From Planctomycetota bacterium (GTDB taxonomy: Bacteria > Planctomycetota > UBA8742 > UBA2392): a stretch of DNA of 34,319 bases. The stretch covers positions 1 through 34,319 of the forward strand of contig JADLBZ010000257.1 in assembly GCA_020847415.1 (NCBI GenBank), read 5' to 3'. The stretch's first letter is position 1; each line of letters opens with the position of its first letter. Made by a program: the position numbers and the translations under genes. Below are positions 366 to 19,651 of this stretch, in pieces. Below the pieces are notes generated by a model. It was not told the origin of the DNA. It saw only the letters and a list, made by a program, of their open reading frames with translations, and ran no database searches.

Positions 366-2396
366 CTAGTGGTCCTCGTAGAAGAGGCTGACGGCCTCTT
401 CCACGGTGGTCAAGCCGTCCAGCAGCTTCATGAAGCAGCTCTGTCGCAGGTTGCGCATGCCCATGCGCGCGCACTCTTCTTCCAGCTCGCCTTCCGGGCG
501 CTTGTCCAGGATCATCTCGCGCAAGCGAGGCGTCATGGTCATGTACTCGTGCACGGCAAGACGGCCTTTGTAGCCCGAGTTGTTGCAGAACGTGCAGCCC
601 TTGCCGCGAAACAGGTCAATCTCGACGCTGGGCTGCCGGAAGCTCTCCGCCAGCTGCTGCACCAGCGCCGGGCTGGGCGTATAGGGCTCCTTGCACTTGG
701 GACAGATCATGCGGATCAGGCGCTGGCTGATGGCGCAGATCAGCGAGCTGGTGATCATGTAGCGTTCCAGGCCCATGTCCGCCATACGGGTCACGGTGGC
801 GCAGGCTGTGTTGGTGTGGATGGTGCTGAACACCAAGTGACCGGTCAGTGCCGCGCGCACGGCGATTTCCAGCGTCTCCTGGTCGCGCATCTCACCGATC
901 ATGACCACGTCCGGGTCCTGGCGCAGGATGCTGCGCAGGGCGCTGGCGAACGTCATGCCGATGTTGGCGCGCACCTGCACCTGGTTGACGCCCGGTAACT
1001 GGTACTCGACCGGGTCTTCCACCGTGACGATGTTGATCTCGGGCGAGAAGATGTACTTCAGGAACGAGTACAGCGTGGTGGTCTTGCCGGAGCCGGTAGG
1101 TCCGGTCAGCACAATCACGCCGTGGGGCGAGTTCAACACCCGCTTCATTTCCTTCAACGTCATGGGGTCAAAGCCGCAGCTTTCGAGCTCCATGGCGGTG
1201 GCGGACTTGTCCAGGATACGCATCACCACCTTCTCGCCGTGCACCACGGGCAGAGAAGAGACGCGCATGTCGATGCCCCGGTCGCCCACCTTCAGCTTGC
1301 AGCGACCGTCCTGGGGCAGGCGCCGCTCGGCGATGTCCAGGTTGCTGATGATCTTGATGCGGCTGACCACCGCGTTGTACAGGCGCTTGGGCGGGGCCGT
1401 CACCTCGCGCAAGGCACCGTCAATACGGAAGCGCACCGCCACCTCGCGCTCGAACGGCTCGAAGTGAATATCGCTGGCGCGCTGCTTCACAGCTTCCATC
1501 AGCGTGGCGTTCACGTATTTCACCACCGGCGCGTTGCTGGCCGCGTCCAGGGCTTCCTTGTCCACGCCGCCCTGGTCCTCTTCCTCGGCGACCAGCTCGG
1601 CGTCCACGCTCTTGAGGTCCTCGCCCATCTGGTCGAGGCTGTACTGCTGCTGGTAGTGCTTGTCGATCGCGTCGGCAATGGCCACGCGGGTGGCAATGTA
1701 GACCTTCACGCTCTTGCCGGTGATGGACTTGAGCGTGTCCACGGCAATCACGTCGGCCGGGTTGGCCATGGCGACATGCAGGTTGTCGTCTTCCAGCTTG
1801 AAGGCGATCAGGTTGAAGCGGCGGGCCTGGCGCTCGGGAATCAACAGCACCGCGTCGGCCTGGAACTGGAAGCCCTCGGCGTTCAGGTCCTGGGCGTCCA
1901 CGCCCAGGTTGATTGCCAGGTACTTGATCAGCTCCGATTCTTCTACAAGGTTGGTGTCCACCAGCACGCGGCCCAGCTGCTTGCCGGTCTGCTTGTGGAT
2001 CTTCAGGGCGTGGTCAAGCTGATCTTCGTCCAGCACGCCCGCTTCCACCAGCAGTTCGCCCAGGCGCTTGCGCTGCCCGCCGGGCCGGGCAACGCCCGGG
2101 CGCGAAACCCTAGGCGCGCGACGCTGCACGCCGGCCTGCTGCGCAGCGGCCCCCGCCGCCGCATTGGGCGCGGCCGGCGGTGCCACCTGTGGCGGCTGTT
2201 GCGGGCCGGTGGGCTTGACGGGCGCCTGGGCCGCGCCGGGCCGCACCGGGACTGCCCCGGAAACGGGCCGGGCCGGCGGATTGCCGGCCCCGGTCTTGTC
2301 CTGTTGTTCGCCGGCGACGGCAACACTTCGCACGTAGCGCACGCTGGTCGTGGGCTGCTTGGCCCCCTGGTTACCGTTTGGCGTAGGTCCCGCCAT
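366..2396 (-). CDS. pilB: Type IV pilus assembly / type II secretion ATPase PilB/GspE
   Basis: A 676-residue secretion ATPase that would drive pilus extension or pseudopilus assembly at the inner membrane. Residues 1 to about 110 are Pro/Ala-rich and look disordered. A T2SSE N-terminal domain follows (about 110-260), then the ATPase core with Walker A GPTGSGKTT near residue 430, the Asp box around VTVEDPVEY, and Walker B DPDVVMIGEMRD near 495-505, where Met replaces the usual Ile of GEIRD. A His box (HLVFSTIHTN) and a C-terminal zinc site (CPKC and CTFC) are present, as is usual for PilB/GspE rather than PilT. A GGAG lies about 12 nt before the ATG. The pilT start follows immediately and a TPR lipoprotein gene precedes it, favouring PilB over GspE. 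Confidence 0.92.
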   Translation of the reverse strand: MAGPTPNGNQGAKQPTTSVRYVRSVAVAGEQQDKTGAGNPPARPVSGAVPVRPGAAQAPVKPTGPQQPPQVAPPAAPNAAAGAAAQQAGVQRRAPRVSRPGVARPGGQRKRLGELLVEAGVLDEDQLDHALKIHKQTGKQLGRVLVDTNLVEESELIKYLAINLGVDAQDLNAEGFQFQADAVLLIPERQARRFNLIAFKLEDDNLHVAMANPADVIAVDTLKSITGKSVKVYIATRVAIADAIDKHYQQQYSLDQMGEDLKSVDAELVAEEEDQGGVDKEALDAASNAPVVKYVNATLMEAVKQRASDIHFEPFEREVAVRFRIDGALREVTAPPKRLYNAVVSRIKIISNLDIAERRLPQDGRCKLKVGDRGIDMRVSSLPVVHGEKVVMRILDKSATAMELESCGFDPMTLKEMKRVLNSPHGVIVLTGPTGSGKTTTLYSFLKYIFSPEINIVTVEDPVEYQLPGVNQVQVRANIGMTFASALRSILRQDPDVVMIGEMRDQETLEIAVRAALTGHLVFSTIHTNTACATVTRMADMGLERYMITSSLICAISQRLIRMICPKCKEPYTPSPALVQQLAESFRQPSVEIDLFRGKGCTFCNNSGYKGRLAVHEYMTMTPRLREMILDKRPEGELEEECARMGMRNLRQSCFMKLLDGLTTVEEAVSLFYEDH

Positions 2397-6676: not shown

Positions 6677-7861
6677 CTAATACTTGGGCGAAGTGGGGTC
6701 CACCTCGTCGCTCCAGCGCAGCATGCCGCCCACCATGTTGCGGGCATTGGCAAAACCCATCTGCTGCAGGTGCTTCACGGCCTGACCAGACCGGTTGCCG
6801 GAACGTCAGTAGATGACGAGTTCCTTGTCCTTGTGCGCCGACAGCTCCTGCCAGCGCTGGCCGAACTCGGGCAATGGAATCCAGGCGTCGTAGGGCAGGG
6901 CACAGATGCCCAGCTCGTTGTGGTTGCGCACGTCCACCAGGAAAGGCTTGTCACCGGCCTTGATGCGCGCCGCCAGTTGCACGGGCGTGATCTCGTCGGA
7001 TCTCACGGCAGCCCTGGCTTCGGCCTCCTTGGCCTTGCGGGCTTCCTCGTCCGTGGGCACGCCGCAGAACTGGTGATAGTCAATCAACTGGTGAATGCTG
7101 CGCTTGGGGCCGCAGATGGGGCACTCGGGGTCCTTGCGCACCTTCAGCTCGCGGAACTTCATGCCCAGGGCGTCAAACACCAGCAGGCGGCCCTTCAGCG
7201 TCTCGCCGATGCCGGAGAGCACCTTCAGGGTTTCCAGGGCCTGCAGGCAGCCCACGATACCCGGCAGCACGCCCAGAACGCCGCCCTCGGCGCAACTGGG
7301 CACCATGCCCGGCGGCGGGGGGTCAGGGTACAGGCACCGGTAGCAGGGCCCGTCTTTCATGCCGAACACTGTGCACTGGCCGTCAAAGCGGAAGATGCTG
7401 GCGTAGGCATTGACCTTGCCCTCCAGCACGCAGGCGTCGTTGACCAGGTAGCGCGTAGGGAAGTTATCGGTGCCATCCGCCACGACGTCGTAGTTGCGCA
7501 CAATCTCGCGGGCGTTCTGGCTGGAAAGGGCCACTTCGTGGATCTCGACCTCGACGTGGGGGTTGAGGTCCTTGATGCGGTTGCGGGCGCTGATGACCTT
7601 GCGCTCGCCGACGGTGCTGGTGCCGTGGATGATCTGGCGCTGCAGGTTGCTGCGGTCCACGACGTCAAAGTCCACGATGCCGATGCGGCCCACGCCGGCT
7701 GCCGCCAGGTACAGGGCAAGCGGGCTGCCCAGACCGCCCGCGCCCACGCAAAGCACGCTGGAGCGCTTGAGCTTCTCCTGCCCCTCGCGCCCGAACTCGG
7801 GCAGGATGATGTGCCGCGCGTAGCGCTGCAGCTCTTCGTTGGACAAGACCGCCTGCGTCAT
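6677..7861 (-). CDS. moeB: MoeB/ThiF-type adenylyltransferase fused to rhodanese domain; probable selenoprotein (in-frame TGA at Sec352)
   Basis: 394 residues if TGA at 6806-6808 is read as selenocysteine. Residues 1 to about 255 are an E1-like MoeB/ThiF domain that adenylates the C-terminus of a sulfur-carrier protein: nucleotide loop GAGGLG (40-45), the DFDVVDRSNLQRQ segment, ADGTDNFPTR, and zinc cysteines C173, C176, C247, C250. A rhodanese domain follows (about 282-394), with VDVRNHNEL and then VIY-TGA-RSGNRSG, where the family has the catalytic Cys of CRSGxRS. Past the TGA the frame continues with a normal rhodanese end (QMGFANARNMVGGMLRW) to TAG. A SECIS-like hairpin lies just downstream. 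The start at 7861 has GAGG 11 nt upstream; an in-frame ATG at 7921 would add 20 non-conserved residues. Role: sulfur transfer for molybdopterin, thiamine or thiocarboxylate cofactors. The alternative is a premature stop. Confidence 0.85.
6778..6793 (-). promoter_or_regulatory. Bacterial SECIS-like hairpin for UGA recoding in moeB-rhodanese
   Basis: In the minus-strand mRNA, 12 nt after the UGA begins a 6-bp stem CGGUCU/AGGCCG closed by the tetraloop GGUC. The loop starts exactly 18 nt after the UGA. In E. coli fdhF, as I recall its sequence, the SelB-binding loop is also GGUC and also starts 18 nt after the UGA. A lower pairing UUC/GAA (6800-6802 with 6774-6776) can extend the stem. The hairpin lies inside the coding sequence, as bacterial SECIS elements do. 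Confidence 0.75.
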
Positions 7862-7924
7862 AGATTGGTCCTCAGTGCCGGCCCGTGCTTGGGCGGCCAA
7901 TGTAGATCGGGCTGACTGCAAACA

Positions 7925-7954: not shown

Positions 7955-10900
7955 CTATCGCTTCCGGCCGCCGTGCACCAAAGCCTTCTTGCGCGCGGGC
8001 TTGCGGGTGGCACCGGCCTTCTTGGCTGGACGGGCCGCCTTCTTCTCGCCATCGGCCTTGGCCTTTGGCTTGGCCGGCCTGGCCGGCTTCCTGGTACTTT
8101 CGCCCTTGGCCGCCTTGGGCTTGGCAGCCTTGGGTTGTGCCGGCTTGCGGCTGGGCGGCCTGCGGCGTCCACCCTTGGCTGCCGGCGCCACGGCGCTGCC
8201 GGCCGCAGGTTGCGGGTGCGGCTCGGGCCGCGCTGCGGGCTCGGGTCGCGCTGCGGGCTCCGGCTGGGCGACAGCCGCCGGTTGCGGCTGGCCCTGTGGC
8301 TGTGGCTGCCGCTGTTGCCGGGGTTGGCCCTGCGGCTGGCCGGGCTGACGGTCCCGTCCGCCACGACGGCGCCCGCGGCGATGGCGGCCACGGCGGCCCT
8401 CGCCGTGACGACCGGGCTCGCCCTGACGCGGCTGGCCCTGCGGCTCGCCTGCGGCGCTCTCCACGGCTTCGGCCTGAGCGGCAGGCTCGTGCTCGCGGCG
8501 CGGCTGGGGCTCGCGGATCACTTCCAGGGGCGGCAGCTCCGGCAGGGTGGCCCCGAAGCTGACCGCCTTCTGGGACTCGGCCTGGATGCGCGCCTGGCGC
8601 TGCTGGCGTTCCTGCTCCTGCTCGCGCTGACGGCGCCCGCCACGACGGCGCTTGCGGCCGTTGCGCGGCTCGCCGCCGCCAAAGGTGCCCCCGGCACCGC
8701 CGGAGGCCGCCAGCGGAGCGGCCACGTTGCTCTTGCTCTTGTCGTGCTCGTCGCGCACGAAGGTGTTGATGCGCTGGTCAATGTCGTACAGCACGCGCAC
8801 GGCGCGGTCGTTCACGTAGTAAAAGCGCGTCTGGCCCAGGGTCAGGTCGCGGGCGTATTCAAAGGCGATGCGCTTGCCGAACTCCTCTTCCAGGTCGTCA
8901 ATGTCGGTGCGGAATTCGCTGTGCAGGTGCGAAAGCACATGGGGGTGCACCTGTACCGCCAGCTCGCGCACACGTTCTTCGCACAGGGCCAGCTTCATGC
9001 GCCGGATCAGCGACAGGCACATGGTCTCCGCCGAGTGCACCATGCCGAAGCCCGCGCAGGTGGGACAGGCCACGTAGGTGTAGGCCTTGATGCTGGGTCG
9101 CACGCGCTGGCGCGTCATCTCAATCACGCCAAAGGGGCTCATGCGGGCCACCTTGGTGCGGGCGCGGTCACGGCGCAGTTCGCGCTTCAGTGCGTTCTCG
9201 ACATCGCTGCGGTGCTTGGCGTTCATCATGTCAATGAAGTCGCAGCACACGATGCCGCCCAGGTCGCGCAGGCGCAGTTGCCGGCAAAGCTCCGGAACAG
9301 CCTCCATGTTGGTAAGGTAGGCTGTGCGCTCGGCATCGCCCGCCGAGGTGAAGCGGCCGCTGTTGATGTCAATGCTGACCAGGGCCTCGGTCTGCTCGAC
9401 GTACAGGTAGCCGCCGGACTTCAGGTTCACCTTCTTGTCGAAGATGTGGTCAATCTGGCCTTCCACGCCCGCCGAGTAAAACAGCGGCACCTCGCCCTCA
9501 TAGAGCTTCACGCGGTCGCGGAAAGTGGGCATCAGGGTGTCAAAGAAGGCCAGCACGCGCTCGTAGACCGCCTTGTCGTCAATGACGATCTCGGCGGTTT
9601 CCGCCGTGAAGTAGTCGCGCACGGCCCGGATAGCCGGGTCGCTGTCCGAATACAGCAGCGCCGGCGCCGGGGCCTCGTGCAGCCGCTGGGTAATCACGTT
9701 CCAGATGCGCAGCAGGTAGTTCAGGTCACGCCGCAACTCGTCGATGCTGCGGTCAATGGCCGCGGTGCGGATAATGACGCCCATGCCCTCGGGCACCGGC
9801 AGGCGGTCCAGGATACGGCGCAGCTCCTCGCGGGCCGAGCCGTCCTCGATCTTGCGGCTCACGCCGCCGCGCTGGCTGTTGGGTGTCAGCACCATGTAGC
9901 GGCCGGGCAGGCTGACAAACGTGGACAGGCCGGGGCCTTTGCCGCCCTGGCTGGCCTTGGTGACCTGCACGACGACTTCCTGCTGGCGGCGCAGCAGGTT
10001 CTGGATCTTGGGCAGGGGCCCGCGGTGAAAGCGCAGGGCCGGCCCGTTGGGCGGCGCTGAGCCGTCGCCGCCTGTGGCGGGCGGCGCGGGCGGCTGTACT
10101 GGTTCCGCGGCCGGCGTGTTCTCGGCCTGGGGCTGCTGCTCGCCTTGGGTCTCGTCCAGGACGCGCTTGGGGATGCGGCCTCCGCGCATCTTGGGCATGC
10201 GGCGGCGCCTCTCGCGGGGTGCTTCTGCCGTCTGGGGTGCGTCTGCGGGTGCGCTTTGTGTCTGCGCACTTTCTGCAGGCGCGCCTGCCATCGGCCTGCC
10301 GGCAGCCGGCGCGCTTTCAGCCGGGGGTGCCGCCTGCGGGACAGGTTGCGCGGCATGTTCGACCAACGCAGGCGCTGCCGCGGCGGTTGCCTCCTGCCGG
10401 GGCTGGGCCACGGGCTGCGCGGCTGTGCCGTTTTGCGGCAAGGGCGATCCGCCCTGCTGGGCCGCTCGCTCGGCGGCTTCGCGGGCTTCACGGCGGCGGC
10501 GACCGCCGCGGCGGCCGCGACGACGGCGCTTGCGACCCTCACCCTCGGGGGAACCCGCGGCACCGGGCACGCCCGGCGGCAGGCCCGGGGCCTCGGTGTC
10601 GTCGCCCTCGTCTTCGTCTTCGTCATCCTGCTGCGCGCCCTCGGCGTAAGGCGCGGGGCGCGGGGCAGGCGCCGGCGCAGGCCGTAACGCGCCGTCTTCG
10701 CCCTCGCCCGCGTCATCGGGCAGGGCGGGCGCGTGCTCGGCACCCTCCACAAAATCCGCATGTGGTGCCGCGGGCACCGGCTCGCTGCGGGGCGGCTCAA
10801 CATTCAAGGGCGACTCGGTCAGGCGATGCCCGGGGGCGGGCTCGTTGACATGATCCAGAAATTCGTCCTCGCGGCCGGGGGCGCCCTCTTGGTGCGCGGG

Positions 10901-11281
10901 CTCGTGGGGCACCTCGTGGCCGCCCACAAAGTCCTGCACTTCCTCGACGTCGCGCTCGGCACCGGAGGCCGCCACCGCGTCCTCGGGCAGCGGCTCGCGG
11001 ATTCGCAGGCTGCGCGGGAACAGGTCGGTCAGCGCCGGGTTGTTCTCGTAGGCGTACAGCACATCACTGATGTGCAGGAAGCCGTTGCGTTCCAGGCCGA
11101 TGTCCACAAAGGCGGCCTGGATGCCCGCCTCCACGTTCTCGATCAGGCCCTTGTAGATGTTGCCGACGTGCTTGAGCTGCGAGGGCCGGTCCACGAAGTA
11201 CTCGTAGAGCTTGTTGTCCTCCAGCACGGCGATACGGCATTCGTCGCCGTCCGCCACATTCATCAGAATCTTGCGTGTCAT
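7955..11281 (-). CDS. rne: Ribonuclease E/G with a large disordered insertion in the S1 domain
   Basis: 1108 residues. The S1 domain starts at about 37 (VGNIYKGLIENVEAGIQAAFVDIG) but is interrupted after HISDVLYAYE (about residue 78) and resumes at KIQNLLRRQQEVVVQV (about 425). The roughly 350 residues between are Pro/Ala/Glu-rich with an Arg-rich block (KRRRRGRRGGRRRR). The catalytic core is intact: VSIDINSGR with Asp638 and CCDFIDM with Asp681 are 43 residues apart, matching E. coli D303 and D346. The zinc-link CPTC (C739, C742) is 58 residues further, matching C404 and C407. From about 865 the tail is disordered, with RNA-binding-like Arg/Gly and Gln/Pro stretches and a histone-H1-like Lys/Ala/Pro end. 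It would process rRNA and degrade mRNA. It lies 12 bp after the DUF2344 gene. Confidence 0.92.
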   Translation of the reverse strand: MTRKILMNVADGDECRIAVLEDNKLYEYFVDRPSQLKHVGNIYKGLIENVEAGIQAAFVDIGLERNGFLHISDVLYAYENNPALTDLFPRSLRIREPLPEDAVAASGAERDVEEVQDFVGGHEVPHEPAHQEGAPGREDEFLDHVNEPAPGHRLTESPLNVEPPRSEPVPAAPHADFVEGAEHAPALPDDAGEGEDGALRPAPAPAPRPAPYAEGAQQDDEDEDEGDDTEAPGLPPGVPGAAGSPEGEGRKRRRRGRRGGRRRREAREAAERAAQQGGSPLPQNGTAAQPVAQPRQEATAAAAPALVEHAAQPVPQAAPPAESAPAAGRPMAGAPAESAQTQSAPADAPQTAEAPRERRRRMPKMRGGRIPKRVLDETQGEQQPQAENTPAAEPVQPPAPPATGGDGSAPPNGPALRFHRGPLPKIQNLLRRQQEVVVQVTKASQGGKGPGLSTFVSLPGRYMVLTPNSQRGGVSRKIEDGSAREELRRILDRLPVPEGMGVIIRTAAIDRSIDELRRDLNYLLRIWNVITQRLHEAPAPALLYSDSDPAIRAVRDYFTAETAEIVIDDKAVYERVLAFFDTLMPTFRDRVKLYEGEVPLFYSAGVEGQIDHIFDKKVNLKSGGYLYVEQTEALVSIDINSGRFTSAGDAERTAYLTNMEAVPELCRQLRLRDLGGIVCCDFIDMMNAKHRSDVENALKRELRRDRARTKVARMSPFGVIEMTRQRVRPSIKAYTYVACPTCAGFGMVHSAETMCLSLIRRMKLALCEERVRELAVQVHPHVLSHLHSEFRTDIDDLEEEFGKRIAFEYARDLTLGQTRFYYVNDRAVRVLYDIDQRINTFVRDEHDKSKSNVAAPLAASGGAGGTFGGGEPRNGRKRRRGGRRQREQEQERQQRQARIQAESQKAVSFGATLPELPPLEVIREPQPRREHEPAAQAEAVESAAGEPQGQPRQGEPGRHGEGRRGRHRRGRRRGGRDRQPGQPQGQPRQQRQPQPQGQPQPAAVAQPEPAARPEPAARPEPHPQPAAGSAVAPAAKGGRRRPPSRKPAQPKAAKPKAAKGESTRKPARPAKPKAKADGEKKAARPAKKAGATRKPARKKALVHGGRKR

Positions 11282-11293
11282 AGGCTCCCGTCT

Positions 11294-11959
11294 TCACGAA
11301 AGGGGCGGGGCCGTCGGGAGGTCTTCTTCCAGCAGGGTTCGGGTCTTGGTCACCAGATGGGCCAGCGGGTCCAGCCCCAGCAGCGCCAGCAGGTCGGAGG
11401 GCTTCATGCCCCCCTCTGCCGTGGACTTCAGCCGCATGCGCAGCGTGCTGCCGTGCAGCACCGCCCCCAGCACATAGGCCCGGGCGTCAAAGCTGCGCGC
11501 GGCCTTGCCTTCGCCGCGGCTGCGCGTGTAGGGGATGCCGGCTTTGGCCAGCAGCTCCGCCAGGCGCTGCACTGTCTGTTCGAGAAGCTCCGGCACGGGC
11601 GGCAACTCGCAGGAAAACTCCTGGGCTGCCACGCGCGGCCTGCCTGATGCCAGGACAGCATCTTTCAGCCGCAGCCCGGCGGGCATCTGCGCCGCCAGGA
11701 CCGCCAGTACCCCGGAAGGATCCGGGGGGCCGGCCTCGTGCTGCAGGTCAATGTCTACCAGCTCGTCCAGGCTTTCCACGCCCAGGGGCAAAGCCAGTGC
11801 AAAAGAGACCCTTGGGTGGGGATTGAAGCCCTGGGTGAAGGCCACTCCCAGTCCTGAGCGCCTGAGTGCAAGCTCAAAGACGCGCATCAGGTCATGGTGC
11901 GAGATGAACCGCAGCGCGTCGCGCTTCTCAAAGCGCATCCGGTAACGGCTGATGTTCAT
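11294..11959 (-). CDS. DUF2344 / TIGR03936-type radical-SAM-linked protein
   Basis: 221 residues. The N-terminus RYRMRFEKRDALRFISHHDLMRVFELALRRSGL, the phrase FTQGFNPHPRVSFALALPLGVES and the following D-hydrophobic-D stretch are the hallmark of the DUF2344 family. In many bacteria this is fused or adjacent to a radical SAM protein and lies just upstream of rne/rng. No radical SAM gene lies next to it here, but rne follows by 12 bp, reproducing the usual linkage. Its biochemical role is unsettled; the position suggests an RNA or translation-related function. GGGA precedes the ATG very closely. Confidence 0.85.
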   Translation of the reverse strand: MNISRYRMRFEKRDALRFISHHDLMRVFELALRRSGLGVAFTQGFNPHPRVSFALALPLGVESLDELVDIDLQHEAGPPDPSGVLAVLAAQMPAGLRLKDAVLASGRPRVAAQEFSCELPPVPELLEQTVQRLAELLAKAGIPYTRSRGEGKAARSFDARAYVLGAVLHGSTLRMRLKSTAEGGMKPSDLLALLGLDPLAHLVTKTRTLLEEDLPTAPPLS

Positions 11960-16594: not shown

Positions 16595-19500
16595 TCACGG
16601 CTGAACAATGCGCTGCACGGCGGCCTGCACCCTGCCCCGGTGATACGCCAGCTCCTGCAACAGTTGGGCCCCGGCAGCCATGCCGCCGGACGCCGCGTAG
16701 CCCAGGCGCCGGGCATAGGCCTCAAGCTCTTCGCCCTCGGGCACCGCATCCAGCGGCTGTCCTGAGTGCAGTTGCAGGCGGTTGATGGCCTGGCGCAGAA
16801 AGGTGTAGCTCTCGGTCAGTTCGTCGGAGGTGCGGGCGTCCAGCAGGCCCGATTGCCGCGCCGCCTCCAGCAGGGCCAGCACGTCCGGGTTGCGCAGGGC
16901 CGGCTGTTCGCGGCCGTGGCGCATCTGCAGGTGGGCCAGCACGAACTCGATGTCCATGGTACCGCCGGCGGCGCGCTTGAGGTCACCAGCCGCGGCCTCG
17001 CGCTGCACGCGGGCGCGCATGTCCAGCATCTGGGCGGCGTCGGCGGGCGCGCCATAGACAAAGCGCTCCAGGATGCCCGCCACGCGAGCTGCAATCGCGC
17101 CCGAGCCGGGCAGCACGCGCGCCCGGCAGGCGGCGATGCGTTCCCAATATCCCGCATCGCCCTGCAGGTAGCGCTCCAGTTCCTCGGGCGTCGTGGCCAG
17201 AGTCCCGGCCCTGCCGCGGGGCCGCAGGCGCAGGTCCACGTCGCACAGCTTGCCGCGCTCGCCGGCGGCAGTCAGCAGGTCCAGCACCCTTCGCACGACA
17301 CGGGCGTAGAAGGTCTGGGCCTGGGCGGGGTCCGCCATCGCCGCCGGGTCATAGACAAATACCAGGTCCAGGTCGCTGGCATAGTGCATGGCGCCGCTGC
17401 CCATCTTGCCCAACCCCACCACGGCCAGCCGCTCGCGGGGGGCATCCTGCAACAGGTCGCGGGCCGGGCGGCCGTCCAGGTCGCGGCTCAACTCGACGCG
17501 CAGAGCCTCGTCCAGGGCGGCATCCAGCAGCGTCTCGGCCAGCACACACAGTTCCCGCAGGGTCTCCGGCAGGGGTGTGCGACCGGTGATGTCCAGCAGG
17601 CCAATGCGCAGCACCTCGGCGTCTCGCTGGCTGAAGAGCCCCTCGGCCGGTTCGCGGGCAGAGGCCATGCGGCTGTGCAGGTCGGCGCGCAGGCGGGCGG
17701 GGTCCAGTGCCGTGAAAGTCTGCAGCTCGTCAATGAACTCGTCCACCATGCCGGGGCGGCCGGCCAGCATGCCGGACAACCAGTCTGACTGTGCCGCAAT
17801 GGTGCCAAAGATGCGCAAGGCCCGGGGGTCTTCGGCGATCAGCTCGAACAACATCGTCTTGGCGCCCAGGTTGGCCACGATGCGCTCAAAGTTGCGCAGG
17901 GTGGCGTCCGGGTCCGGCGTGGCAGCCACAAACTCAAGCAGGTGGGGCATGATCGAGGCCAGGTACTTGCGGGCACGGGGCGCGTACAGCCGGTTCTCGG
18001 GCGACTCCTCGGCCAGCTCACGAATCGCGTGATAGGCCCCGGAAAGGTCCCGGAAGCCGTAGCGCCCCAGCACCGGGGCGGCTTGGGCCTGCTCAAGGTC
18101 CGGGTCCAGCACCAGCTCACTCTCGGCATGGGAGGCTGATGAGAACAAGCCGGCAAACAGCCGCACCATCAGCCCGCGCGAGCGCAGGGTGTGGGCGCGC
18201 AGCCGGGTGGCCAACTGGCGGGCGGCATCCAGCCTGCGTTCGCCGCCCAGGCCCAGGCAGCGACCGATGCGCGCCAGTTCAGCGGGGGCCGAGGGCAGGG
18301 TGTGGGTCTGGACGCCTTCCCACAGTTGCAGGCGGTGCTCCACGGCGCGCAAGTACTCGTAGGCCTGGGCCAGTTCGCCCGCTTCGGCCTGCTTCAGCAC
18401 GCCGTGGGCCGCCAGGGCGCGCAGGGCAGGCAGGGTGCCGCGCTCACGCAACTGGGGCAGACGCCCGCCGTTCAGCAGTTGCAGGAACTGGGTGATGAAC
18501 TCGATGTCGCGGATGCCGCCAAAGCCGGTCTTTACATCGAGAAAGGTCTCGGCCCGCAGGTCGGTGCGCTTTTCAATGACGCGCTTCACCTCCTGCATGC
18601 GGTTGATGTCCTCGACGCTCAAGTACTTGCGAAACACCCAGGGCTGCAGCTTCTCCAGCATGGCCTGGCCCAGTTCCAGGTCGCCGGCGCAGGCGCGGGC
18701 CTTGAGCAGGGCCTGGCGCTCCAGGGTGGTGCCATAGCTGTGGTAGTAGTCGAGGGTGGATTGCACGCTGCGCGCCAGGCGCCCGCGCTTGCCCTCGGGC
18801 CGCAGGCGGGTATCCACGCGAAAGACCAGGCCCTCCTCGGTAACCTGGTCGAGCAGGGGAATCAGGCGCTCCGCCAGCTTGACCGCCCAGGCCTGCGCGC
18901 CGGGGTGCTCGCCGGAGAACACAAACATCACGTCAATGTCCGAGCTGTAGTTCAACTCCTCGGCGCCGTGCTTGCCCAGGGCGATCACGCAGAAGCGCAG
19001 GCCCGGCGGCTCGGCGGGGCTGCCCCGGGCGCGCAACTCGGCGGCGGCACAGCAAAGGGCCGCCTGCAGGGCGCCATCGGCCGTGGCGGAAATGCCCCGG
19101 GCCACTTCCTCCATCGGGCGCTTCAGCACAGCCTCCTGGTACAGCACTCGCAACAGGAAGGAATGGTGGTTCTCGCGAAGGGCAGGCAGCACGGGCCGGC
19201 CGGAGGCAATGAGGGCCCGGGCGGCATCGGCCACGGCGTGCGCGGTTACGGGGGCAGCCAGGGCAGCTTCGTCGGCGGCCAGGAACCACCGCCACCCACC
19301 GGCCTCGAGGTAACGGCCCAACAGCCGCGAGTGCCCCAGCACGACGAACAGCCGCAAGAAGGCGGCGGGGGCTTTGAGGGCAACGGTGACGAACTCGCCC
19401 ACGGCGGCGGCATCGCGACGCAAGAGGCGCTCGACGGCGGTCACGGATTCCTCAGGTGCGGGCGAGCCGTCGAAGGCGCGGGCCAGCAAGTCCACAAAGT

Positions 19501-19651
19501 TGGCCGCGTCGCTGTCGGGAACGCGTTGCAGGTCCTCGCGGATGCCCTCAGCTGCTGCCTGCAGCACTTCGCCGGCGGTGGGCGCCGGCTCGTCGGCCGC
19601 CTCGGGGGCGGGCATGGGCCAGTCGAGCGTCCTGGGATCGGGCTCGTTCAC
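16595..19651 (-). CDS. glnE: Bifunctional glutamine synthetase adenylyltransferase/adenylyl-removing enzyme GlnE
   Basis: 1018 residues with the two nucleotidyltransferase domains typical of GlnE. The N-terminal (deadenylating) domain has GKHGAEELNYSSDIDVMF near 226-243. The C-terminal (adenylating) domain has GLGKMGSGAMHYASDLDLVF near 746-766. Each is followed by further conserved segments, such as VDTRLRPEGKRGRL and VDLRLRPRGRAGTL, and a helical domain. The enzyme adjusts glutamine synthetase activity to nitrogen status under PII control. The N-terminal 60 residues are acidic and weakly conserved. The start is a GTG with no clear ribosome binding site; TACACT lies 6 nt upstream, so a leaderless transcript is possible. 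The gene upstream (NYN) ends 33 bp away. Neither glnA nor glnB is in the window. Confidence 0.93.
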   Translation of the reverse strand: MNEPDPRTLDWPMPAPEAADEPAPTAGEVLQAAAEGIREDLQRVPDSDAANFVDLLARAFDGSPAPEESVTAVERLLRRDAAAVGEFVTVALKAPAAFLRLFVVLGHSRLLGRYLEAGGWRWFLAADEAALAAPVTAHAVADAARALIASGRPVLPALRENHHSFLLRVLYQEAVLKRPMEEVARGISATADGALQAALCCAAAELRARGSPAEPPGLRFCVIALGKHGAEELNYSSDIDVMFVFSGEHPGAQAWAVKLAERLIPLLDQVTEEGLVFRVDTRLRPEGKRGRLARSVQSTLDYYHSYGTTLERQALLKARACAGDLELGQAMLEKLQPWVFRKYLSVEDINRMQEVKRVIEKRTDLRAETFLDVKTGFGGIRDIEFITQFLQLLNGGRLPQLRERGTLPALRALAAHGVLKQAEAGELAQAYEYLRAVEHRLQLWEGVQTHTLPSAPAELARIGRCLGLGGERRLDAARQLATRLRAHTLRSRGLMVRLFAGLFSSASHAESELVLDPDLEQAQAAPVLGRYGFRDLSGAYHAIRELAEESPENRLYAPRARKYLASIMPHLLEFVAATPDPDATLRNFERIVANLGAKTMLFELIAEDPRALRIFGTIAAQSDWLSGMLAGRPGMVDEFIDELQTFTALDPARLRADLHSRMASAREPAEGLFSQRDAEVLRIGLLDITGRTPLPETLRELCVLAETLLDAALDEALRVELSRDLDGRPARDLLQDAPRERLAVVGLGKMGSGAMHYASDLDLVFVYDPAAMADPAQAQTFYARVVRRVLDLLTAAGERGKLCDVDLRLRPRGRAGTLATTPEELERYLQGDAGYWERIAACRARVLPGSGAIAARVAGILERFVYGAPADAAQMLDMRARVQREAAAGDLKRAAGGTMDIEFVLAHLQMRHGREQPALRNPDVLALLEAARQSGLLDARTSDELTESYTFLRQAINRLQLHSGQPLDAVPEGEELEAYARRLGYAASGGMAAGAQLLQELAYHRGRVQAAVQRIVQP

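Follow-up and report, generated by a model that had tools for sequence, protein, structure and literature searches.

A long, mostly disordered loop interrupts the S1 domain of a planctomycete RNase E/G family protein and is retained in its relatives

Insertions in the RNA-binding S1 domain of RNase E have been described in alphaproteobacteria and plants, in text that presents them as charged, predicted to be disordered and about 50-150 residues long (PMC4245959). According to the same text, a helical part of the Caulobacter insert reaches into the predicted RNA site, with an acidic helix visible in the crystal, and deletion of the S1 insert lowers the activity of Arabidopsis RNase E. An S1 insert of about 50 residues is also mentioned for Wolbachia RNase E (PMC5436854). 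Here we describe a protein of the RNase E/G (Rne/Rng) family whose S1 domain is interrupted by a much longer loop, and which is encoded in a stretch of 34,319 nucleotides from a Planctomycetota bacterium (GenBank assembly GCA_020847415.1, contig JADLBZ010000257.1), referred to below as the window. S1 inserts are already known as a kind; what is new is the phylum, the length, which is more than twice that published, the presence of conserved islands and the recurrence of such inserts. The matches listed in the open-access literature included none that deals with the S1 inserts of planctomycete RNase E.

The C-terminal scaffolds of RNase E offer a second point of comparison, since they are likewise portrayed as disordered and charged, with short Arg-rich motifs, in E. 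coli, in Pseudomonas (the AR, REER and NDPR motifs) and in the BR-bodies of Caulobacter and Sinorhizobium. In the Pseudomonas tail, Arg-rich motifs are stated to bind RNA and one of them to bind RhlB (PMC11964227), and charge patches of the disordered RNase E tail have been tied to condensates in the account given by PMC12691583. Unlike these scaffolds, which lie past the catalytic core, the loop of the window protein sits inside the S1 domain, and the enzyme has a C-terminal tail as well. With regard to planctomycetes, a table from 2011 gives RNase E/G lengths of 509-588 residues and no predicted degradosome-like potential, and the review text that goes with it holds that such small enzymes appear to be without scaffold regions (PMC3071783).

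When compared by phmmer with E. coli RNase E (2bx2), the window protein aligns in two stretches, residues 3-78 with chain positions 9-84 and residues 423-799 with positions 94-471, so that 344 residues (79-422) stand in place of nine in E. coli, a net insertion of 335. The first-pass annotation of the window had placed the cut in the S1 domain at about residue 78 and its resumption at about 425, and the alignment bears this out. The parts of the protein are as follows:

7955-11281, minus strand: open reading frame (ORF) of the RNase E/G (Rne/Rng) family, ATG at 11281, 1108 residues, without internal stop
11048-11281, minus strand: residues 1-78, N-terminal part and first S1 half (phmmer to 2bx2; AlphaFold strands 42-51, 56-60 and 67-70)
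10016-11047, minus strand: residues 79-422, S1-loop insertion of 344 residues (phmmer; mostly low model confidence; low identity in the family)
10802-10873, minus strand: residues 137-160, island C (E-x-x-F-L-x-x-[LV]-...-G-H-...-S-P), with a short weak helix at 137-143
10592-10636, minus strand: residues 216-230, acidic run DDEDEDEGDDTE
10454-10534, minus strand: residues 250-276, Arg-rich patch RKRRRRGRRGGRRRREAREAAERAAQQ, with a helix at 260-275
10163-10213, minus strand: residues 357-373, second basic island RRRRxPKxRGGxxPKR, found by motif match
8798-10015, minus strand: residues 423-828, second S1 half and remaining catalytic core (phmmer to 2bx2; VIA-align Z 32.1 to 5f6c_A)
7958-8797, minus strand: residues 829-1108, C-terminal tail of low conservation, with a basic island at about 874-912 and an end rich in Lys, Ala and Pro

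The assignment to the family is well supported by profile matches (PF10150, E 9e-97; PF20833, E 3e-12), and the scores of 324 bits for Pfam RNase_E_G and 466 bits for TIGR00757 (NCBIfam) exceed the respective cut-offs of 25.5 and 326 bits. The equivalog cut-offs for RNase E (PRK10811, 397.6 of 908 bits) and RNase G (PRK11712, 367.9 of 594 bits) are both missed, and the protein is therefore placed at the Rne/Rng level only. The whole protein gave no match in PHROGs. The catalytic core appears to be normal, as the first-pass annotation had proposed from the spacing of its key residues: D638, N640, D681, C739 and C742 are all present in columns that are invariant across 45 aligned sequences, and the distances D638-D681 (43 residues) and D681-C739 (58 residues) are ungapped relative to E. 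coli RNase E in the phmmer alignment. We take D638, D681 and N640 to be the catalytic residues and C739 and C742 to form the zinc-link CPxC, the counterparts of D638, D681 and C739 in E. coli presumably being D303, D346 and C404, with equal spacing.

The interrupting loop is Pro/Ala/Glu/Arg-rich, of low complexity and GC-rich, with 17% acidic, 11% basic and 12% ILVFYWMC residues. A disordered, Pro/Ala/Glu-rich insertion of about 350 residues with one Arg-rich patch had been proposed from the first inspection; the composition stands, with Arg-rich patches at 250-276 and 357-373, but the disorder is not uniform, since conserved islands and one helix of fair confidence (260-275) lie within the loop. 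Searches of Pfam up to E 0.1 found no domain in the loop, in the C-terminal tail or in the longest planctomycete loop considered below (locus L079). Tandem-repeat expansion was rejected as the source of the loop, inside which no array was found. Two short tandem arrays, with periods of 15 and 18, do occur at window positions 8105-8161 and 8220-8264, both in the part that codes for the C-terminal tail.

An AlphaFold2 model of residues 1-828, built from 45 aligned sequences and ending before the tail, has a mean predicted local distance difference test score (pLDDT) of 72. All ten-residue blocks of 1-90 and 421-828 reach at least 80, except for 74 at 641-650, and the loop segments 109-136, 148-157, 160-259, 276-329 and 331-413 fall below 50; the weak helix at 137-143 and the helix at 260-275 (block 261-270 at 80) are the exceptions within the loop. 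The Foldseek and VIA comparisons took in the matches down to the entries for RNase E, RNase W/FAU-1 and S1. The S1 region of the model (40-461) superposes on the E. coli S1 domain 1smx_B over 81 of 81 residues (Z 12.4, root-mean-square deviation (rmsd) 2.4), and residues 36-552 match Caulobacter 4oxp over 184 of 200 residues (Z 18.9, rmsd 4.0). In the model, a single S1 barrel formed from both halves thus closes around the loop. Over whole E. coli chains the rmsd is mostly high (14.7-16.8 Å; 3.7 Å over 378 residues for 2vrt_A), which in these models probably stems from domain placement, and for this reason only domain-level matches are relied upon. Taken at the level of sequence alignment and family comparison, the interruption of the S1 domain by a long, mostly disordered loop is real.

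The inserts of Caulobacter (PDB 4OXP) and Wolbachia RNase E lie in the same S1 loop (about 77-87 in E. coli) and are, as here, charged and predicted to be disordered. In nine Wolbachia and other Rickettsiales loci the net insert came to 47-50 residues in eight and 27 in one, while a further locus (L056) was too short for measurement, and the agreement of 47-50 with the published figure of about 50 serves as a check on our measure of the insert. The alphaproteobacterial inserts are 50-150 residues long, partly helical and contained in a RhlB-binding fragment, whereas the window protein has an insert of 335 residues with islands of its own and belongs to another phylum; given that its length lies outside the published range, it is regarded as a long variant and not classed as the same type. 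The likeness to the chloroplast RNase E of Arabidopsis, in which the S1 insertion matters for activity, is drawn from the published description and not from aligned sequences.

The family of the window genome (f1) comprises 16 genomes including its own, of which one (G005) gave no RNase E match. In each of the 15 others a single contig carries both the first S1 part and the core, which are separated by a net insert of 223-335 residues (for instance 335 in G000, 297 in both G004 and G008, 281 in G007 and 255 in G015). Mean pairwise identity among 13 aligned members (loci L005 and L007 were excluded) is 0.83 for residues 1-78, 0.24 for the insert, 0.81 for the core and 0.34 for the tail. The tail is poorly conserved beyond about 845, with 0.34 over 830-1108, but reaches 0.67-0.71 at 875-894 and 905-914. 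The insert contains 11 invariant columns, of which six fall in 141-158 (F141, L142, G151, H152, S157 and P158), adjoined by E138. Island C is found in all 15 family genomes with a match, although in G008 it stands in another frame, and it is absent from all 71 rows outside the family, a set that holds a few duplicates and only 25 rows with a loop of more than 60 residues. Of the 14 family genomes that could be measured in one reading frame, 10 show a match to the basic island at 357-373; it is missing from G002, G009 and G012, which carry weaker basic patches, and in G014 the sequence is out of frame there. The first-pass annotation had proposed to test in related genomes whether the insertion is conserved in composition or length; it is indeed retained there, with island C throughout and basic patches in most.

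The window consists of one contig from a draft assembly (3.58 Mb in 327 contigs, 85% complete), and two relatives have broken frames in the insert: in G008 it is divided between reading frames, and in G014 it runs in another frame for a stretch and then returns. An assembly or frameshift artefact might thus be suspected of producing the insertion, as the first inspection had itself allowed. However, one unbroken insert frame is present in 13 of the 15 family genomes, the window genome among them, and neither break lies in the window genome. G014 and G008 have the fewest contigs in the family (6 and 5), and the PNPase match of G014 is also in two overlapping pieces, for which reasons the breaks are read as likely sequencing indels. 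The family-wide open frame, the conserved islands and the substitution pattern of the insert rule out such an artefact for practical purposes, and we consider it exceedingly improbable.

The ratio of nonsynonymous to synonymous change (dN/dS, Nei-Gojobori) of the insert is 0.15-0.48 in the eight family pairs whose frame is intact and 0.49 in the one pair with a break. For the first S1 half and core together it is 0.03-0.21 in the eight unbroken pairs, and over all nine pairs it is 0.02-0.21 for the core and 0.15-0.42 for the tail; these figures are rough, as several pairs are close to saturation at synonymous sites. The insert is under purifying selection, and the loop is probably a working part of the protein rather than an error.

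With regard to what this part might do, the loop would most likely serve as a tethered arm next to the active-site cleft that binds RNA and partners, in addition to the C-terminal tail. The Arg-rich patches would capture RNA, the conserved islands might bind a partner, and the acidic first part may contend with RNA for access to the cleft, as has been proposed for the acidic helix of the Caulobacter insert; loop and tail together would then form a scaffold for the decay machinery. That the window protein is an ordinary Rne/Rng endoribonuclease with a real long loop acting as such an arm is the reading that we hold with moderate confidence, going by the position, composition and constraint of the loop. 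The first-pass annotation had seen in the loop, beside the disordered tail, something that could bind RNA or partners or drive condensates; alignment and model uphold its large, mostly disordered loop in the RNA-binding S1 domain next to a normal core, and the binding role is retained here as a proposal. PNPase was matched in all 17 genomes of the order, over the cut-off in 16, and with RNase Y also present a degradosome is possible.

Several observations weigh against the tethered arm. The insert evolves fast and, at an identity of 0.24, is kept no better than the tail. In 3 of the 13 aligned members (G002, G009 and G012) the basic islands are diminished or absent, so RNA capture by them would not be universal even within the family. 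The out-of-frame stretches in 2 of the 15 genomes could mean that the loop sequence is tolerated and not needed. Moreover, RNase Y scores over the cut-off in all 17 genomes of the order, and RNase E need be neither the main decay scaffold nor the only decay enzyme. Some of the same facts suit a neutral growth of the loop, in which the S1 loop would be a permissive site for the expansion of low-complexity, GC-rich sequence with no function of its own, and selection would act on the closure of the barrel only: the low conservation and the composition of the loop, the frame breaks of G008 and G014 and the presence of similar loops of unrelated sequence in several planctomycete families would all be expected. 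Neutral growth nevertheless appears unlikely, as the dN/dS of the insert is well below 1, island C is shared by every family genome with a match and no measured member retains fewer than 223 residues.

The distribution of charge along the loop bears on a further possibility, that of an autoinhibitory gate in which the acidic first part would mimic RNA in the cleft until it is released by RNA or a partner bound to the basic part. The last third carries more positive charge than the first third, itself net negative, in 36 of 37 inserts from seven lineages (loci L005 and L007 and duplicate loci excluded). The acidic insert helix that enters the RNA site in the Caulobacter crystal, as described in PMC4245959, would fit such a gate, as would an acidic helix at 656-676 of L079, fairly confident in its model (blocks 74-88), which just precedes the point of re-entry into S1. 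Conversely, L079 holds the longest insert and is opposite in polarity (-17), no model places the loop in the cleft, and the trend in the f1 inserts, which passes a residue shuffle at 0.05 in 12 of 13 members, passes a shuffle of ten-residue blocks in only 8 of 13. Furthermore, the f1 C-terminal tails show the same acid-to-base trend in 13 of 13 cases, so the layout may be a general habit of these disordered parts, and polarity was dropped as proof of a gate. We regard an autoinhibitory gate as quite improbable.

Long S1 inserts are also found outside the family. Of 392 genomes searched, 364 and 358 had matches to the two parts of the protein, and at least 87 had both among the matches listed, which are the best-scoring rows and hence not a fair sample. 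Among these, two genomes of the same class outside the family have net inserts of 11 and 23 residues, and the other 70 reach 168 at most, with a median of 9. A further sample consisted of 20 genomes chosen for long ORFs, together with G016, G018 and G252. The same insertion site is used, without island C, in the planctomycete families f34 (net insert 44-286 residues), f86 (168-225), f48 (195), f44 (293), f76 (162) and f99 (615); the f86 range comes from three genomes, in one of which (G234) the contig ends within the first S1 half and the value derives from a weak partial match (E 0.001). Five of the 20 long-ORF genomes have net inserts of only 4-17 residues, their ORFs being long for other reasons. 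In the AlphaFold model of L079, the f99 locus, the two S1 halves are confident (blocks of 78-95 in 31-80 and 85-94 in 701-760) and the loop is low apart from its acidic helix.

On a quick core tree of 77 rows, the character 'insert of at least 150 residues' needs seven changes, four of them forced by starred branches. One common origin for the long and middle-length inserts taken together was rejected by the approximately unbiased (AU) test (p 0.0005, 73 rows), as was a grouping of f1 with f99 (L079) alone (p 0.012). A clade of f1 with f34, f86 and f48 was not rejected (p 0.62), its tree outscoring the free quick tree by 5.5 log units, and neither was a grouping of f1 with f3, a short-loop family of the same class (p 0.81). 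The same-class genomes G017, G018 and G019 have inserts of 11-23 residues, which favours a separate gain in f1 or a loss in those three. The gain of long S1 inserts more than once in Planctomycetota is thus supported. A wider proposal, which we put forward tentatively and with more doubt than trust, is that the RNase E scaffold of this phylum has repeatedly shifted from the C-terminal tail to the S1 loop, so that giant loops of up to 615 residues, mostly acidic first and basic last, would combine an RNA-mimic gate with an RNA- and partner-binding arm, island C docking a partner in f1.

Other arrangements of RNase E were also seen. Members of f34 (L034-L046 and L090-L098) combine long N-terminal extensions and S1 inserts with almost no C-terminal tail, a placement of disorder unlike that of E. 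coli, and L080 (G067) is an ORF of 1684 residues in which about 1165 residues precede the S1 half; this N-terminal extension may be a fusion or else a disordered head of great length. In G016, the only genome of the sister family, S1 start and core (L072/L017) are on separate contigs: the core contig, C37, ends within an insert that has an Arg/Gly-rich stretch, and the S1 start on C245 runs into sequence that does not resemble RNase E, which could reflect a misjoin or a rearranged gene.

The surroundings of the gene in the window, identified by profile matches, are ordinary neighbours, the first of which lies directly upstream and serves as context only:

11294-11959, minus strand: protein of the DUF2344 / TIGR03936 family
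366-2396, minus strand: PilB-like ATPase with MshEN domain
6806-7921, minus strand: MoeB/ThiF-like adenylyltransferase
16595-19651, minus strand: GlnE-like adenylyltransferase

Planctomycete RNase E enzymes can therefore reach at least 1000 residues and carry disorder inside the RNA-binding domain, in contrast to the small enzymes tabulated in the 2011 review (PMC3071783). Should the loop gate the active site or feed it, these enzymes would provide a test system for the role of S1 inserts in chloroplasts and alphaproteobacteria, because a single phylum offers relatives with short and with long loops for comparison.

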